Source: Agrobacterium tumefaciens
Lineage (GTDB): Bacteria; Pseudomonadota; Alphaproteobacteria; Rhizobiales; Rhizobiaceae
Direction of reading: 5' to 3'
DNA length: 64,000 nucleotides
Assembly: GCF_013337285.1 (NCBI RefSeq)
Contig: NZ_SUPW01000003.1
Coordinates: forward strand, 186,001 to 250,000
The notes under the pieces were generated by a model that saw only the letters and a program-made list of their open reading frames with translations, was not told the DNA's origin and did not search any database. Within the stretch, counting starts at the first letter, position 1; each line of letters begins with the position of its first letter. The position numbers and the translations under genes were made by a program. This document shows positions 9,221-16,277 of this stretch, piece after piece.

Positions 9221-9250
9221 AAAAGGCCCCGGTAATCACCGTCCCGGGCC
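9221..9250 (-). terminator. Terminator of the 9236-9727 hypothetical gene
   Basis: GC hairpin (GGCCCCGG paired with CCCGGGCC, one mismatch, 11-nt loop) followed on the minus strand by TTTT. It overlaps the end and stop codon of the gene at 9236, supporting that gene as real. Confidence 0.65.
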
Positions 9251-9727
9251 TGCCGGCAAATCGCGCCTGGCCGCGTAAGGCTTGGCCTCCCGCTGGATCA
9301 GGAAGACGGATTTTTCGACCGGAAGCGGCTCGGCCGTCCGGTACCGCTGAAACCGTCTGGAATATTCGAACCGGATCAGCCTGCCTTCGAACTTCCCCGC
9401 CAGAACGCGATAGCCGTTGACGAATTCGTTCAGGATTTCCAGCTCTTCCCCCCACAGCCAGCCACCGTAAGAGGTGCCCTCGTTCGAACGCAGCACGATC
9501 TCGAAAAAATGCCCGCCCGCCACCACCGGCATGCGAAAAAGAATATCGAGATTATCCTCATCCTGATCATCACACTTCTCAGCCGATAGCCTGGCATGGG
9601 CAACTTTCGCATGAACCAGCGCCGAGACCGGATAGAACGGACGTCCCTTGAACCACATGAACTCGCTGACCGCGTATCCGACATCGTCGGCACGCTGGTA
9701 AGGTTCAGTACGCGGCTCGAACGCCAT
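9236..9727 (-). CDS. Hypothetical soluble protein
   Basis: 163 residues from an ATG with a GGAAG ribosome site; a GTG 39 codons upstream (9844) keeps the frame open but has no ribosome site. The protein is mixed alpha/beta and soluble, with recognisable stretches such as FMWFKGRPFYPVSALVHAK and GWLWGEELEILNEFVNGYRVLAG. I recognise no domain. A terminator at its end supports expression as a single gene. It is divergent from the regulator of the YcaO-TfuA operon, 196 nt away, so it could share the control region. Confidence 0.6.
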   Translation of the reverse strand: MAFEPRTEPYQRADDVGYAVSEFMWFKGRPFYPVSALVHAKVAHARLSAEKCDDQDEDNLDILFRMPVVAGGHFFEIVLRSNEGTSYGGWLWGEELEILNEFVNGYRVLAGKFEGRLIRFEYSRRFQRYRTAEPLPVEKSVFLIQREAKPYAARRDLPAGPGR

Positions 9728-9923
9728 GTAGCTTCCGTTGAACGCTATCAATTTCGAAATTTCCCGATGCCTGCCCGCTGCATGTCCGCTGTTTTCCGCC
9801 CGTCTTTCATGCTTCTGTCTGCGACAATAGGCAGGCCGCGTCACACCAGCGTCAAATGGAACGCTATGATGACTTTCAATTTCCCGGACACGTTGTTAGA
9901 TGGTGATTCATGAGGGGACGAAA

Positions 9924-11852
9924 GTGGCTGGGAACGCTGAACTGATACCGATCAGGCTTTTTGGCACCCCGCGCTGTGACGCGGTGAGGGAGGCGTTTTT
10001 CCCGTCCAAGGGTTTTGCCCTCATCGCAGCCCTCATTCTTGCGCCCAACCAGTCGCTTTCCCGCCAGTCCGCCGCATCGCTCCTGTGGGAAAATGTCGAG
10101 CAAAAACGGGCACTCGGCAACTTGCGACAGCTGATCCTGCGCCTTCAGAAGCTGCCCAATGAAGACGAGGCCATCCTTCTCACCGAAGGGAACGATCTGA
10201 AGGCCGGACAGCTGGCGCAGCGGACCGACCTTGCGATCTTTCTTGTCGGCGCCAGAGCCGAAGACCCGATGCGCCGGCTGCAGGCCCTGCTGGAATTCGG
10301 CGGCGATCTGCTGGATGGGCTGGATGCCGGGCAGGATCATCTCTACCTCTGGCTGTTGTCGGAACGCCGCCGTCTCAAGGACCTGTTCTTTTCGAGCTAC
10401 ACGCAGCTTCTGGAGGAGCTGACCCGCTTTGGCCGCGCCAGCTCCAATGATATCGCGAGACTTGCCGAATGCGCGCGCAATATCGAACCGGAACGCGAGG
10501 AAACCTACCGCGCCGCCATGGCCGCCTATGCGCGGATCGGCAATATCAGCGCCTGCGAAGGTATGTTCGGCCTGTTGCTGGAGCAGCTGCGTCAGGAGGA
10601 ACGTTCGCCGGAAGCCGAGACCGTGGCGCTGAGACGCCGGATACAGAGCCTCGCCTCGACGATAGCCACCCCCGCCGAGCCGGACGACGCCAACCGGCGA
10701 AAAGCCACTGCGAAACCGCGCGTCGCCTTCGGCCTGCCGGCGCGGGTGGATGGGCTGCCGGCATCGCCGGTCATGCATGCCTTTATCGAGGATGTCGCCA
10801 ACAGCCTGGTGCGCTATCGAACATTTACCGTCCTTTCGCCGCACAGCACCTTTGCTCTTTCACGAGGCCGGGCCGATGATGGTTACGCCATGCTGCGGGC
10901 CGACTACCGGATCATGTCGTCGGTTTTCGACGATACCGGCATGTCAGTGGCGCTGATCGAGGAAGCGACCGGCGAAATCGTCTGGTCGCTGGAAGTGGTC
11001 CTCTCCGAGCGGCACATCCACACCGCCTTTCGTCTGCTCTCCAAACAGGTGGCTGCGGCGCTTGCCCGTGAGATCGAGCGGCTGCAGGTGGAACCCGACC
11101 GGAACCACAGCGGCGAGGCCTACCGGCAATTGCTGGAGGGCCAGCAGCTCCTGCGCGGCAAATGCGACCTGCCGCTTCTGCGCAGAGCCCGTTCGATGTT
11201 CCGCAGAGCCGTCGATCTCGATCACAACATGGCCGTCGCTCGCGCCCGGGTGGCGCAGAGCCTGCAGCTGGAATGGCTGATGCTGGGCGGCAACGACCCT
11301 CACCTGCTGCACCGCGCCAAGGCGGAGGCTGACGCTTCCGTGGAAATCGACCCCGCCCTCGGCGTCGGCCACTGGATGTGCGCCGTGGTGGCGCTCTACC
11401 AGCGGGATTTCGACATATCCGCCGAAAAATTCTTCGAGGCGGAGGCGCTTGCGCCCAACTCCGCCGACCTCCTGCTCCAGCATGCGGATGCGCTTGCCCA
11501 CTTTGGCGATGCCGAGACCGCCTGGGAGAAATTCCAGCAGGCGATCGATCTCAACCCGCTCGCACCCGATATCTACTGGTGGGCAGGCGCCAGCATCGCC
11601 TTCAAGCGCGAGGATTACGGCGCGGCGGTGGAATTATGCGCGCGAATGGAAAATGACGAGCCGGCCCTGCGGGTTCTGACCGCAAGCCACGCGCTGCATG
11701 GGGATTTGGCCGCTGCACGGGAAACCGGCGGCAGGCTTCAGGAAAACTATCCGGGTATGTCGGCGAGGGAGATCAGCAGCCTTTCTCCAGACCGCGACCC
11801 GATAGCGAATGAGAAATTCTATCACGCACTTCGATTAGCTGGGATCAAATAG
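9924..11852 (+). CDS. SARP/BTAD-type transcriptional regulator with TolB-like and TPR regions
   Basis: 642 residues from a GTG preceded by GAGGGGAC; an ATG 24 nt upstream has no ribosome site. Order: a short winged-helix-like DNA-binding region (about residues 5-75), a bacterial transcriptional activation (BTAD) helical region (about 140-240), a central segment resembling the TolB/FlgO-like domain seen in CadC/HilA-type regulators (VAFGLPARVDG...VLSPHSTFAL), and C-terminal TPR helices (about 390-640). No membrane segment, so a cytosolic one-component regulator. It is the first gene of the YcaO-TfuA operon, 8 nt before the next gene, and is the likely controller of it (inference). Confidence 0.75.
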   Translation: MAGNAELIPIRLFGTPRCDAVREAFFPSKGFALIAALILAPNQSLSRQSAASLLWENVEQKRALGNLRQLILRLQKLPNEDEAILLTEGNDLKAGQLAQRTDLAIFLVGARAEDPMRRLQALLEFGGDLLDGLDAGQDHLYLWLLSERRRLKDLFFSSYTQLLEELTRFGRASSNDIARLAECARNIEPEREETYRAAMAAYARIGNISACEGMFGLLLEQLRQEERSPEAETVALRRRIQSLASTIATPAEPDDANRRKATAKPRVAFGLPARVDGLPASPVMHAFIEDVANSLVRYRTFTVLSPHSTFALSRGRADDGYAMLRADYRIMSSVFDDTGMSVALIEEATGEIVWSLEVVLSERHIHTAFRLLSKQVAAALAREIERLQVEPDRNHSGEAYRQLLEGQQLLRGKCDLPLLRRARSMFRRAVDLDHNMAVARARVAQSLQLEWLMLGGNDPHLLHRAKAEADASVEIDPALGVGHWMCAVVALYQRDFDISAEKFFEAEALAPNSADLLLQHADALAHFGDAETAWEKFQQAIDLNPLAPDIYWWAGASIAFKREDYGAAVELCARMENDEPALRVLTASHALHGDLAAARETGGRLQENYPGMSAREISSLSPDRDPIANEKFYHALRLAGIK

Positions 11853-11860
11853 GAGATATT

Positions 11861-12289
11861 ATGTCCTCGCATTTCTTCATTGTTGGAAAAAAGGGCTTCG
11901 GCGTTCTTTTCATTCGCACGACGCCGCTGAGGGTTGCGTCCGTATCGCATGAGACGATCGCGGCCTATGAAGCCAGCCACCCCGGCGTGGACGGCTATGC
12001 ACGCGTCGCGGCTGCGGCAAAGGCCATGCTCGTCCGCCAGGACGGCCAGCCCGAGGCTGAGCTGGACCAGGTCCAGATCCAGGGCATCGAAGCTCTCGTC
12101 GCCGGCGGCGCCGTGGTTTCCGAGGCAGATTTCGCCTTTATCGGTGAAGTGACCGACGCCGGCTGGGATTTCAACCGCATGGTGCAGGCACCGATCGGCG
12201 CGGCGCTGAAGGCTGTCGGTCCGGCGGGTTCCGTCACCGGCGAGCTGTTCGACGCCATCCTTGCCGACGACGCCAACTCTGCACCCTGA
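11861..12289 (+). CDS. 142-residue cysteine-free protein, candidate substrate of the YcaO/TfuA/PAD-like enzymes
   Basis: Excellent ribosome site AGGAGA overlapping the regulator's stop codon region. No recognised family. Features: a basic, hydrophobic N-terminus (SHFFIVGKKGFGVLFIRTTPLR), an alanine-rich middle, an acidic C-terminus (ELFDAILADDANSAP). It has no cysteine, five arginines (residues 19, 24, 48, 59, 106) and several Gly-containing loops. Absence of Cys argues against thiazoline formation but allows backbone thioamidation or arginine modification. Its position immediately before the YcaO gene, which it overlaps, is where RiPP precursors usually lie; it could equally be an accessory protein. 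Substrate role is inference only. Confidence 0.75.
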   Translation: MSSHFFIVGKKGFGVLFIRTTPLRVASVSHETIAAYEASHPGVDGYARVAAAAKAMLVRQDGQPEAELDQVQIQGIEALVAGGAVVSEADFAFIGEVTDAGWDFNRMVQAPIGAALKAVGPAGSVTGELFDAILADDANSAP

Positions 12290-13520
12290 TCGCGGTTCCG
12301 CAGCCTTGACCGGTGCCGGTGCTCCCATATCAGCGACAGCGGCTTCGAGGCATGCGGACGCATCGTTCTTCGATCCCGAACTGCTCCGGCAGTTCGGGAT
12401 TACCCGCGTCGGTGACGTGACCGGTCTCGATATTATCGGCATACCCGTCTGGTTTGCGGTGCGCCCCAATTCGCGCGGACTTTCGGTTTCGCAAGGCAAG
12501 GGACTTGTTGCGGAACAGGCGCGGCTCTCGGCGATCATGGAAGCCATCGAAGGCGCCGTCGCTGAAGATACCCGCAAACATGTCTCGGCCTTCGGCTCCC
12601 TCGAGCAGATGCGGGCAAAGGGCGTTCCTCTCATTCCTTTCGAAACCGTCGGCCGCGTCGATCCGGACAGGCTCGATCCTCGCCGCGAACGCGGCTGGGT
12701 GAAGGGAATATCCGTTCGCCAGCAGCAGGAGGTATTTGCTCCTTACGAACTCATCGGCATGGATTTTCGCGCGGATTTCCCTTGGGATCGGCAGGCTTTC
12801 CTCATGAGTTCGCAGGGTCTCGCGGCGGGGTTTAACGACGACCATGCGGTTCTCCACGCCTTGCTCGAACTCGTCGAAAACGATGCCTGTTTTCTCGTCG
12901 ATACATTCGAAACCCGCACGATCGCGCCGGAGCCGGTCACATTTCCGGCCGGCGTCGATACGTCGTTCGACAGCCTTGTTGACCGCCTTTCAGACATTGA
13001 CCTGAAACCGTCCTTCTTCGACATGACGAATACACTCGGCGTGCCGGTGGTGATGGCAAGCCTTCCCCGCTCCGTTAACGCGCTGGACGGCCCCGCAACC
13101 CGTAATGCGGCGGGCGCGGCCTGCCGGACCGCAACCTATGACGCCGCCGCTGCAGCGCTGCTCGAAGCGATCCAGTCGCGACTGACGGATATCAGCGGTG
13201 CGCGGGATGATCTCTCCCCGCTGCGTTACCGGCGGGACATGTTGAGTGCGCCTGCATCAGCGCGGCAGCCGGTAGAGCGGACGCCGGTGCAGCTTGATCT
13301 TGTAACGGATGGCAGATCTTCGCCACCCTGGCGCAAGCTTGCCGAGCGCCTTTTTACCGCAGGGATTGAGGACATTTATGTCTTCGCACTGGAAACGGGT
13401 TTCCCGGGCCTCAATGTCGTGCGGGTTCTGGCAAGCGGCCTTACCCCGACCAGCGGCGGCCTGCAAAACATATCGCCGCGGACACTCGATCATTTCCTGA
13501 GCACCGGAGGTGTTCGATGA
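12261..13520 (+). CDS. YcaO-domain ATP-dependent amide-modifying enzyme
   Basis: 419 residues from a TTG 29 nt inside the preceding gene; another TTG at 12306 is possible and neither has a clear ribosome site, so translation is probably coupled. The YcaO ATP-binding elements are visible: SVSQGKG and MEAIEG (about residues 75-97), GLAAGFNDDHAVLHALLELVENDA (split motif, Glu203 and Glu206), and AALLEAIQSRLTDISGARDD (about 298-317). YcaO enzymes activate backbone amides with ATP; with TfuA they install thioamides (McrA, thiovarsolin-type peptides). The C-terminus lacks the PxPxP tail of azoline-forming YcaOs, in keeping with a TfuA-linked thioamidating type. Overlaps TfuA by 4 nt. Confidence 0.88.
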   Translation: MPTTPTLHPDRGSAALTGAGAPISATAASRHADASFFDPELLRQFGITRVGDVTGLDIIGIPVWFAVRPNSRGLSVSQGKGLVAEQARLSAIMEAIEGAVAEDTRKHVSAFGSLEQMRAKGVPLIPFETVGRVDPDRLDPRRERGWVKGISVRQQQEVFAPYELIGMDFRADFPWDRQAFLMSSQGLAAGFNDDHAVLHALLELVENDACFLVDTFETRTIAPEPVTFPAGVDTSFDSLVDRLSDIDLKPSFFDMTNTLGVPVVMASLPRSVNALDGPATRNAAGAACRTATYDAAAAALLEAIQSRLTDISGARDDLSPLRYRRDMLSAPASARQPVERTPVQLDLVTDGRSSPPWRKLAERLFTAGIEDIYVFALETGFPGLNVVRVLASGLTPTSGGLQNISPRTLDHFLSTGGVR

Positions 13521-14230
13521 AAACCGTGGTTTTTGCCGGCCCCTCCATCCACGGCGTCACTGGCAAAAAAACGTCAGGTCTCGATCTTCGCGGACCCGCC
13601 GCCTGCGGTGATATTTTCGATGCCGTGCAGCAGGGCGTCCAGACGATCGGTCTCATCGACGGCCTTTATGGGGACTGCGCCGCCGTCTGGCACAAGGAAA
13701 TCCTGCATGCCCTGTCATCCGGCGTCACCATTCTCGGTGCCGCCAGCATGGGAGCGCTCCGGGCGGCGGAATGTGCGGCCTTCGGCATGATCGGCATCGG
13801 CGAAATCTTCGAAGCCTATCGCGATGGACGACGGTTTTCCGACGCCGATGTGGCCGTCAGCCACGCGCCGGGTGAACTTGGCTATCGCCCACTGACAATC
13901 GCGCTGGTCGACGCCGAGGCAACGCTGGAAGCGTGCCGCGATAAAATCGCACCGGAAGAACACGATACTCTGCTGCACGCCGCCCGGCATCTGCATTTTA
14001 CCCGCAGAACATGGCGCGCCATTGCCGCTGAAGCCGGGCTTGGTTCGGACGTGGCAAATCTTCTGGCCAAAGAGGCCGTTTCCGTAAAAAGAAACGACGC
14101 GGTCGAACTTCTGGAGGTGCTCAATGCCGGGGACCTGCCGTCCCCGCCATCGCCATCATGGAAATTCCAGAACACGGTGTTTTTTCAGCAATTAGCTGCA
14201 CGGCGGATGACAGGAGAAAAGACGCCGTGA
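13517..14230 (+). CDS. TfuA-like protein, partner of YcaO
   Basis: 237 residues, starting in an ATGA overlap with the YcaO stop. Family hallmarks: an N-terminal VVFAGPS, GPAACGDIFDA, GLIDGLYGD, VWHKEILHAL, and the invariant-looking GAASMGALRAAE block at about residues 74-85 followed by GMIGIGEIFEAY. TfuA was first described in trifolitoxin production in Rhizobium; TfuA proteins partner YcaO enzymes in peptide thioamidation, presumably by delivering sulfur or assisting YcaO. Its coupling to the YcaO gene makes a joint function almost certain; the thioamide product itself is inferred. Confidence 0.9.
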   Translation: MKTVVFAGPSIHGVTGKKTSGLDLRGPAACGDIFDAVQQGVQTIGLIDGLYGDCAAVWHKEILHALSSGVTILGAASMGALRAAECAAFGMIGIGEIFEAYRDGRRFSDADVAVSHAPGELGYRPLTIALVDAEATLEACRDKIAPEEHDTLLHAARHLHFTRRTWRAIAAEAGLGSDVANLLAKEAVSVKRNDAVELLEVLNAGDLPSPPSPSWKFQNTVFFQQLAARRMTGEKTP

Positions 14231-15372
14231 CAATTTCCCGGTCTCCGTCTTTCGTGCCCGATTGTGGTGGACTGATTGACACGATCGCATTCGCGCTTCC
14301 GGCATCGTTTTTTACCGAGCACCGCGACAGGGATGGCATTTCGCCACTCCTTCCCATCGGAAACCTGCTTTCGGCCCTGCCCCGCGAAATGATCGCGGCC
14401 ATCGTCGTCGACCGGGCCTGCCTTTCATCGGCGCAGAACTGGCTCGAAAGGCTGGCGCCCCCCTGCGCCGCCGAGTTGCTGCCGCTTGATGAAAACAGCA
14501 GCATTTCGCACCCGTGGATACAGGATATCGTCCATGTTCGGACCGATGGAAAAGGCACCGCGACCGAACTGGTTTCGGCAGCGGGAAACGCCAGCGCCAG
14601 CGCGCTTGCCAGGCGTTTCGGGCTCGTAACGGCCGTTTCGGACGTCCTTTTGGATGGTGGCAACCAGCTGGTTGGTGCGGATTTTCGGCTGGTCGGACAC
14701 TCGAGCCTCCAGGACAGTAGCGGGGCAGGTGTCGGGAGCAACGCCGTAGAATGTTTGCAGCAATGGCAGAAGGTTCAGGTTCTCGACGGCAGAACAGTCT
14801 ACAGTTTTGGATACCGGCCGGAAGACCTTGGAGTTACGGAGGCCACGCTCGACCTTTCCCAGGCAAGATCAGCCCCCATGCCGATGGCCGCCCGGAAAAT
14901 GCACCAATGCGGTTTCCACGTTGACCAGTTCGTTGCGGTAACCGGTCTGAGGCAGGAAAACCGTCCACTGCTTCTGGTCGCCGATCCGGTGGCGCATGCG
15001 GGATGCAGCAGCCGTGCGGCGACGGATCTGAAACGAAAACTCGACGCCTCGGTGCTTTCGCTGATCCGGGACGGTTTCGCAGTAATACGAAATCCCATTC
15101 CCCTTTCACCGGCCATCGACAGCAACAAATGTATTCCGCGACTTTACAACAATGCCATTCTTGAAAATGTCGCACGATCAGGCCAAAAACAGCCATTCGT
15201 CTGGCTGCCGCATTTCGGCGACGAGGAGGCGCTTGAGGAGTTCGACGAAGACAACAGGCAAATCTGGGAAAGGCTCGGTTTTCATCCCATCGGCGTGGCC
15301 GGATGGAGCCATCTCGCAAGCCGCAACGGGGCGTTGCGTTGCGCCACAAAGGTTATAAACCGGGCCTCGTGA
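14227..15372 (+). CDS. Peptidylarginine-deiminase-like pentein enzyme
   Basis: 381 residues from a GTG that overlaps the TfuA stop (GTGA) and has AGGAGA upstream; an earlier ATG at 14158 is less likely. All four catalytic positions of PAD-type guanidino hydrolases can be matched: Asp100 in PWIQD (same WIQD as animal PAD4), His231 and Asp233 in FHVDQF, and Cys372 in GALRCATKV near the C-terminus; a DGGN motif is at 143-146. Penteins attack the guanidinium carbon of arginine. Peptidyl-Arg to citrulline would fit, as in citrulline-bearing lasso peptides. No signal peptide; cytosolic. Related agmatine deiminase or dihydrolase activity is the alternative. Confidence 0.78.
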   Translation: MTISRSPSFVPDCGGLIDTIAFALPASFFTEHRDRDGISPLLPIGNLLSALPREMIAAIVVDRACLSSAQNWLERLAPPCAAELLPLDENSSISHPWIQDIVHVRTDGKGTATELVSAAGNASASALARRFGLVTAVSDVLLDGGNQLVGADFRLVGHSSLQDSSGAGVGSNAVECLQQWQKVQVLDGRTVYSFGYRPEDLGVTEATLDLSQARSAPMPMAARKMHQCGFHVDQFVAVTGLRQENRPLLLVADPVAHAGCSSRAATDLKRKLDASVLSLIRDGFAVIRNPIPLSPAIDSNKCIPRLYNNAILENVARSGQKQPFVWLPHFGDEEALEEFDEDNRQIWERLGFHPIGVAGWSHLASRNGALRCATKVINRAS

Positions 15373-15511: not shown

Positions 15512-15949
15512 ATGCAGCCCAAACTTCCCAGCCCGATCGACGTGCATGTCGGCACCCAGATCAGAATGCGGCGCAAGTCGCTCGGCATGAGCCAGAGCGC
15601 TCTGGCCGGCCGGCTCGGCATCACCTTTCAGCAGGTCCAGAAATACGAAAAAGGCGCCAATCGCGTTGGTGCATCGCGTTTACAGGCCATCGCATCGGTT
15701 CTCGGCGTCGATGTCAGCTCGCTTTTCGCCAATGCCACGCCCGATGTCGGAAACGACAATCCGGCCATCGGCTCGATAAACGCCATGCAATCCTTCGTCG
15801 CTTCGAATGAAGGATTTTCGCTCAATCAGGCCTTTTCGCGAATCAAGAGTTCAAGCATTCGCAGAAGCATTGTCGCCCTCGTAACATCGCTCGCAGCGAC
15901 CGAAACGGCGGAAAATACGGCCGCGCCGGAGAAAAAGAACGATGAGTAA
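15512..15949 (+). CDS. XRE-family helix-turn-helix regulator
   Basis: 145 residues from an ATG with GGAGG at ideal spacing. The N-terminal two-fifths is a Cro/C1-type HTH (VGTQIRMRRKSLGMSQSALAGRLGITFQQVQKYEKG, then NRVGASRLQAIASVLGV), of the type common in rhizobial single-copy regulators such as PraR. The C-terminal half is poorly conserved with a short helical segment. It follows the YcaO cluster after 139 nt but on a separate AT-rich promoter, so it is probably an independent unit. Confidence 0.85.
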   Translation: MQPKLPSPIDVHVGTQIRMRRKSLGMSQSALAGRLGITFQQVQKYEKGANRVGASRLQAIASVLGVDVSSLFANATPDVGNDNPAIGSINAMQSFVASNEGFSLNQAFSRIKSSSIRRSIVALVTSLAATETAENTAAPEKKNDE

Positions 15950-16043
15950 CGCAGGTGTGACGCTCGCGTGACGCTCGATATGGTCGAAAATGAATAACGC
16001 GGGATCAACGCGTTTTCATACTGTCGATTGTCGAGAGGGAAGC

Positions 16044-16277
16044 ATGGCGGCGTCTACCACAGCAATACTTGAACAGGACAATTCAGACGAGATTCTGGCG
16101 CTTGGAAGGATGGTTTCATACCTTTGCCAACGCTCGAAATCCATGGAACTGGGCATGTCGACCTATTTCCTGGAAATGGCATTGTTGTCGCTGGCCCAGG
16201 ATATCAATCAGCACGGCCTGCCGCATGCAGGCGCAGAGCTGAATTCCAGCGGTTTCGCATCGGCCGATCTGCATTGA
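16044..16277 (+). CDS. Small conserved-looking protein of unknown function
   Basis: 77 residues starting at an ATG with GAGAGGGA upstream; an earlier ATG (15990) is without a ribosome site. Mostly helical, with ILALGRMVSYLCQRSKSMELGMSTYFLEMALLSLAQDI forming an amphipathic core. I recognise no family. It lies 94 nt after the XRE gene and may be co-transcribed with it. After it there is no gene until 16568; that gap holds two weak hairpins. Confidence 0.6.
   Translation: MAASTTAILEQDNSDEILALGRMVSYLCQRSKSMELGMSTYFLEMALLSLAQDINQHGLPHAGAELNSSGFASADLH

Follow-up and report, generated by a model that had tools for sequence, protein, structure and literature searches.

Which molecule might be the common substrate of a YcaO-TfuA pair and a guanidine deiminase that are encoded in a single operon of Agrobacterium tumefaciens? 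The operon lies in the window analyzed here, a stretch of 64,000 nucleotides (positions 186,001 to 250,000 of contig NZ_SUPW01000003.1; G000:C13:186001-250000, G000 being the genome of the window), and also encodes a SARP-type regulator and a protein of 142 residues, P142. We consider it rather probable that these genes specify a compact pathway for a ribosomally synthesized and post-translationally modified peptide (RiPP), or for modification of a protein, in which P142 would be thioamidated by YcaO-TfuA and citrullinated at Arg106 by the deiminase. The genes and the relevant motif are:

9924..11852, + strand: SARP-type regulator with BTAD and TPR domains; GTG start at 9924 with a Shine-Dalgarno-like GAGGGG (alternative ATG at 9900)
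11861..12289, + strand: P142, proposed precursor; putative leader at residues ca. 1–95, core at ca. 97–113 and follower to 142
12164..12196, + strand: P142 core motif WDFNRMVQAPI (W102-x3-R106-x4-P111-I112); Arg106 codon at 12176–12178
12261..13520, + strand: YcaO (PF02624), TTG start
13517..14230, + strand: TfuA (PF07812)
14227..15372, + strand: pentein guanidine deiminase (PAD/agmatine-deiminase fold), GTG start; D100/H231/D233/C372

The layout is that described in the initial annotation, with a gap of 8 nt between the SARP gene and P142 followed by overlaps of 29, 4 and 4 nt; the TTG start of YcaO and its 29-nt overlap with P142 recur in 11 of the 12 genome-contig loci, locus L019 being the exception. 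P142 was also correctly described as devoid of Cys, which excludes a Cys-derived thiazoline in this protein. Pfam searches agreed with the assignments of SARP/BTAD (PF03704, E 2.3e-16), YcaO (PF02624, E 3.7e-49) and TfuA (PF07812, E 5e-41). The last two, with 168.3 and 139.7 bits (cut-offs of 25.7 and 30), are adjacent genes that overlap by 4 nt and thus constitute a YcaO-TfuA pair.

The fifth protein on its own gave no relevant match in Pfam, NCBIfam or the sequences of the Protein Data Bank (PDB), so the reading of its motifs needed a structural check. A structure search with the predicted model identified a pentein fold and bore out the peptidylarginine deiminase (PAD)-type quartet that had been proposed from motifs: residues D100, H231, D233 and C372 form the catalytic Asp, His-x-Asp and Cys set and are conserved in all relatives wherever covered. 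The catalytic residues of PAD4 are D350, H471, D473 and C645. A profile alignment to agmatine deiminases pairs the same four residues, with a low probability (22–26 %). Near the C-terminus lies the catalytic Cys, C372; as an alternative, C302 (in NKCIPRLYNN) was rejected, being present in Agrobacterium and replaced in more distant relatives. Family PF04371 (Porphyromonas-type PAD/agmatine deiminase) did not match the deiminase (P0005) and gave weak matches to two of 17 relatives, the best with E 8.8e-4, and searches of PDB sequences with queries A1 and A2 returned nothing significant. A separate, genuine PF04371 protein is encoded in the same genome (G000:C13:446789-447772), and this family occurs in 2 of the 19 genomes of the genus searched.

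The possibility that these genes are not kept together in related genomes had been raised as a way to refute their association, and comparisons showed that they are. The SARP, P142, YcaO, TfuA and deiminase genes, followed by an XRE-type regulator and a small open reading frame (ORF), have one order in 12 genome-contig and two plasmid loci (the record of L006 ends inside the SARP gene). Within the genus, the deiminase and P142 share the same 21 of 39 genomes (lists compared by eye), and this joint conservation is far beyond chance. In the family, the deiminase is present in 5 of 151 sampled genomes, G000 included, always beside YcaO-TfuA; in the order, it is present in 7 of 397, five of them with adjacent YcaO-TfuA (G000, G160, G393, G506 and G523, whose copy is divided between two contigs, the C-terminal piece facing TfuA). 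The other two are G314 (L035), with no YcaO-TfuA in the 19 kb examined, and G175 (L038), where nothing else was recognized on the 7-kb contig that carries the gene. P142 was found in 4 of 385 genomes of the class, G000 included, and the other three hold SARP-P142-YcaO-TfuA-deiminase-XRE. TfuA occurs in the order in 35 of 249 genomes, at 42 places, three of which hold the deiminase; its absence is less sure at some places, because contig ends cut stretches among the 36 fetched. Identity to P142 was 100 % in Rhizobium rhizogenes GBBC3284, 86–95 % in ten more Agrobacterium/Rhizobium records and 73 % in R. populisoli. Among the 18 deiminase-free genomes of the genus, eight were examined and six retain the downstream flank nearly whole; the two of these flanks that were inspected show another context, with no cluster genes. 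Away from any recognized YcaO-TfuA, relatives of the deiminase are found at L008 8152-9468, in Paenibacillus polymyxa plasmid pPPM1a, where the gene adjoins one for a DNA/RNA non-specific endonuclease, and at L035 8593-10095; in both, His replaces the Arg preceding the catalytic Cys.

P142 is probably the precursor, judging from its place in the operon, from homologs with repeat cores, from a tandem duplication and from an invariant core Arg. Across families, its homologs again lie between SARP and YcaO and fit a RiPP precursor, with a conserved leader and a variable core beside modifying enzymes, the core being nearly invariant within Agrobacterium. Only M1, G9, P22 and R106 are invariant across eleven diverse homologs, the eleventh (L037) aligning poorly at R106. 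Three deiminase-free genomes from another family (G344, G298 and G269) encode one homolog each with a tandem-repeat region, for instance (QSQAGV)n with a DNA unit of 18 nt, situated between SEVDFAF and P..xAL, at the place of Arg106 in P142. Since an earlier profile (A7) held rows from two of the repeat-core loci, the search was redone with a P142 profile free of them; among 12,421 ORFs, it found the leaders of these three homologs with E 8e-19 to 1e-22 and, modestly, their followers (2e-4 to 4e-3). Two tandem copies of P142 are present in L031. Other SARP-YcaO-TfuA clusters of the Rhizobiales have a short ORF in the precursor position, several with repeats (SGGFFEA, RSDAASHHYFPNRG). In L085, L087, L088, L091, L092 and L081, with YcaO-TfuA and no deiminase, the ORF between SARP and YcaO resembles a repeat-core precursor, with units RSDAASHHYFPNRG, SESLSAASSHNWGEPVRGGD and SGGFFEA. 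By eye, no precursor was recognized in L100, which has YcaO-TfuA and no P142.

The motif [WY]x3Rx4P[IL] is present in 25 of 25 deiminase-linked P142 proteins and in none of the eight deiminase-free ones (8/8 versus 0/5 after clustering at 70 % identity; 0/5000 with shuffled C-termini). The motif thus tracks the deiminase and not YcaO-TfuA. The presence of any Arg was rejected as a criterion, because many deiminase-free short precursors hold Arg and two or more occur past the leader in five of the eight P142 proteins without deiminase, so only the motif discriminates. The residue before the core Arg is Asn in Agrobacterium (W-D-F-N105-R106) and Asn, Tyr, Cys, Ile or Thr across other families. 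In the YcaO tree, the clade without deiminase sits among rows that have it (four label changes; support of 83/87 for the sister branch and 96/95 for the enclosing branch), and in the SARP tree it again falls within the P142-type group, at another position. Deiminase and motif would consequently have been gained or lost jointly on at least one occasion and are not the mark of one clade only, an interpretation behind which there are few independent events.

From these comparisons we infer which protein is modified, by which two reactions and where. The SARP regulator would turn on the operon, giving a P142 with a leader of ca. 95 residues, to near SEADFAF, a short [WY]x3Rx4P[IL] core and a C-terminal follower. 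YcaO and TfuA would then put sulfur in place of the oxygen of one backbone carbonyl in the core, most likely at the residue preceding Arg106 (Asn105 in Agrobacterium). The deiminase would hydrolyze the Arg106 guanidine, leaving citrulline; Cys372 would serve as the nucleophile, partnered by D100, H231 and D233. By analogy with known pathways, thioamidation before the Arg plus deimination of R106 is the simplest model. As neither a protease nor an exporter was recognized in the cluster, the product may be freed by housekeeping peptidases or retained in the protein. More tentatively, the outcome could be a dyad on a long precursor, with the C=S of Asn105 beside citrulline 106, which would represent a second, independent solution joining a thioamide to a ureido side chain besides that of the Streptomyces std cluster. 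Since the core hardly changes across Agrobacterium, a shared function could then be expected, for instance the binding of metals or anions or the role of a conserved endogenous signal. Against ten Agrobacterium-type loci, P142 had a median identity of 94 %, SARP 91 %, YcaO and TfuA 77–79 % and the deiminase 64 %; the mean amino-acid difference of P142 was 0.073, next to a fourfold-site difference of 0.31, and that of the deiminase was 0.364, next to 0.53. Such constancy of the product would fit an endogenous function better than that of an arms-race antibiotic.

The initial proposal that YcaO-TfuA and the deiminase act on P142 thus stands as regards the fold and quartet of the deiminase and the precursor-like nature of P142, and several results weigh against it. 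YcaO and TfuA fall below the cut-offs of the McrA-glycine thioamidation equivalogs TIGR03266 (129.2 versus 365 bits), the best NCBIfam match of YcaO, and NF033432 (168.1 versus 235.2 bits). The two most divergent deiminase-linked precursors, in L037 and L040 and outside the P142 set, have an Arg in the core region and no motif, lowering the total to 25 of 27; conversely, in the deiminase-free P142 type of L054–L056 the Arg106 column is occupied by an Arg that lacks the neighboring W/Y and P, and the deiminase-linked rows are mostly close relatives (eight representatives at 70 %). The leaders of P142 and the short precursors align in register, weakly, with 3 of 200 shuffles reaching the score; a stronger result was discounted because the L037 protein stood on both sides of the comparison. 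The structure model of P142 is poor (predicted local distance difference test, pLDDT, of 47), too poor for a fold search, the Cys loop of the deiminase model has pLDDT <50, and a conservation as high as that of P142 is unusual for a precursor. The nearest folds of the deiminase also include small-molecule agmatine deiminases besides peptidyl deiminases. Agmatine deiminases make up the top 15 Foldseek matches, they and the Porphyromonas enzyme PPAD are within ca. 1 Z of each other as structural neighbors, and an R. daejeonense record names its copy as agmatine deiminase family. The enzyme might then act on a small guanidine (agmatine or arginine) and share only its regulation with a YcaO-TfuA pathway whose substrate is P142; we regard this as unlikely.

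It is likewise improbable that P142 is an adaptor or recognition protein with the true target elsewhere, be it the small ORF further downstream or, by analogy with the thioamidation of McrA or uL16, a housekeeping protein. Its strong conservation, the N-terminal strands and helices of its low-confidence model and the resemblance of YcaO and TfuA to McrA-modifying families would fit that role; however, relatives of P142 contain repeat cores, L031 has two copies of it, and the Arg motif follows the deiminase. The small ORF is also a less likely precursor, since it follows TfuA in the deiminase-free clusters L076, L080, L081, L083, L094 and L096 as well. Finally, P142 might bear one modification only, thioamide or citrulline, with the Arg motif serving YcaO-TfuA or a protease as the place of recognition or cleavage. 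Although the thioamide site of thiovarsolin includes an Arg with unmodified guanidine (available text of PMC6511847), the lack of the motif in all eight P142 relatives with YcaO-TfuA and no deiminase makes this very unlikely. The deiminase found beside YcaO-TfuA with short precursors outside the P142 clade in L037 and L040 (on the opposite strand in L040) suggests that the enzyme joined such clusters more than once. Loci L054 (4994-17345), L055 (4188-16590) and L056 (1859-14252) each contain three SARP, two P142-type and two YcaO genes and one TfuA gene; in L054, an FMN_bind_2 protein (PF04299, E 3.9e-57) is encoded between P142 and the YcaO gene that lacks a TfuA partner.

Comparison with known systems draws on the accessible parts of the papers cited. 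The thiovarsolin cluster (VarA/VarY/VarT/VarO) likewise has YcaO-TfuA, a thioamide between Pro and Arg, directly before the basic residue, no specific protease and a repeat-core precursor, as in the wider P142 kin; it differs in lacking a deiminase, in VarO desaturating the Arg side chain, in its short APR repeats and in its Streptomyces origin (PMC6511847). The std cluster of Streptomyces thermodiastaticus also yields a YcaO-TfuA thioamide adjoining a ureido-bearing residue, on Asn13 before Lys14, although here Lys becomes homocitrulline through a carbamoyltransferase, followed by MNIO hydroxylation, and the paper states that the cluster has no deiminase (PMC13174530). In citrulassins, a PAD-type enzyme makes citrulline on a ribosomal peptide, but on a lasso scaffold, in Actinobacteria and, in the text available, with no YcaO-TfuA reported (PMC12971885). 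No genes for a lasso cyclase or leader protease were found in a Pfam scan of the cluster and its near flanks. The present locus is very likely among the TfuA clusters catalogued in a survey covering Rhizobium/Agrobacterium, since Agrobacterium clusters are listed there among the dominant proteobacterial TfuA families; this survey names no deiminase in its accessible portion, the word 'deiminase' does not occur in it, and its main text mentions neither 'arginine' nor 'agmatine' (PMC8120280). Among the matches listed in a search of 5.39 million open-access papers, most subscription papers being outside its scope, we found no description of YcaO-TfuA and a deiminase joined in one pathway. YcaO, TfuA and a deiminase were mentioned jointly in PMC13174530 alone; citrulline and TfuA both occur in PMC9231227 and PMC7369419, and PMC8692822 proved to have no bearing on the question. 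All thioamidated RiPPs from YcaO-TfuA known by 2021 were from Actinobacteria, according to the same survey (PMC8120280), whereas clusters of this type are common in the order studied here. The operon has the merit of a defined precursor, only one arginine as predicted target and a minimal set of enzymes; if the proposal is true, citrulline would join the thioamidated RiPPs, with a deiminase acting on a ribosomal precursor encoded in its own operon.

The conserved unit is wider than the five genes (9924..15372), with three further genes:

9239..9844, − strand: divergent gene for 202 residues; start unsettled, conservation from about residue 28; cluster neighbor
15512..15949, + strand: XRE-type regulator (PF01381, E 5.3e-14), ATG at 15512 with GGAGG upstream; conserved neighbor
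15990..16277, + strand: small ORF of 95 residues (or 77 from 16044); conserved in 14 P142-holding loci

The 202-residue gene and the small ORF have no Pfam match. The former had tblastn matches in 16 loci (the 12 of L009–L020, L007, L032, L033 and L034) and travels with one subclade of clusters, being a candidate eighth component. Pairs of XRE gene and small ORF resembling 15512-16277 also occur around the deiminase-free SARP-YcaO-TfuA clusters L076, L080, L081 and L096. Counts of promoters and terminators were lower than the shuffled means. The near flanks encode a ROK-family regulator (PF00480) and, by eye, proteins resembling parts of a sugar ABC transporter, and the gene at 17-1165 of the window (+ strand) encodes a protein whose GGAGNDVLIGGGGADTF-like repeats look RTX-type by eye.

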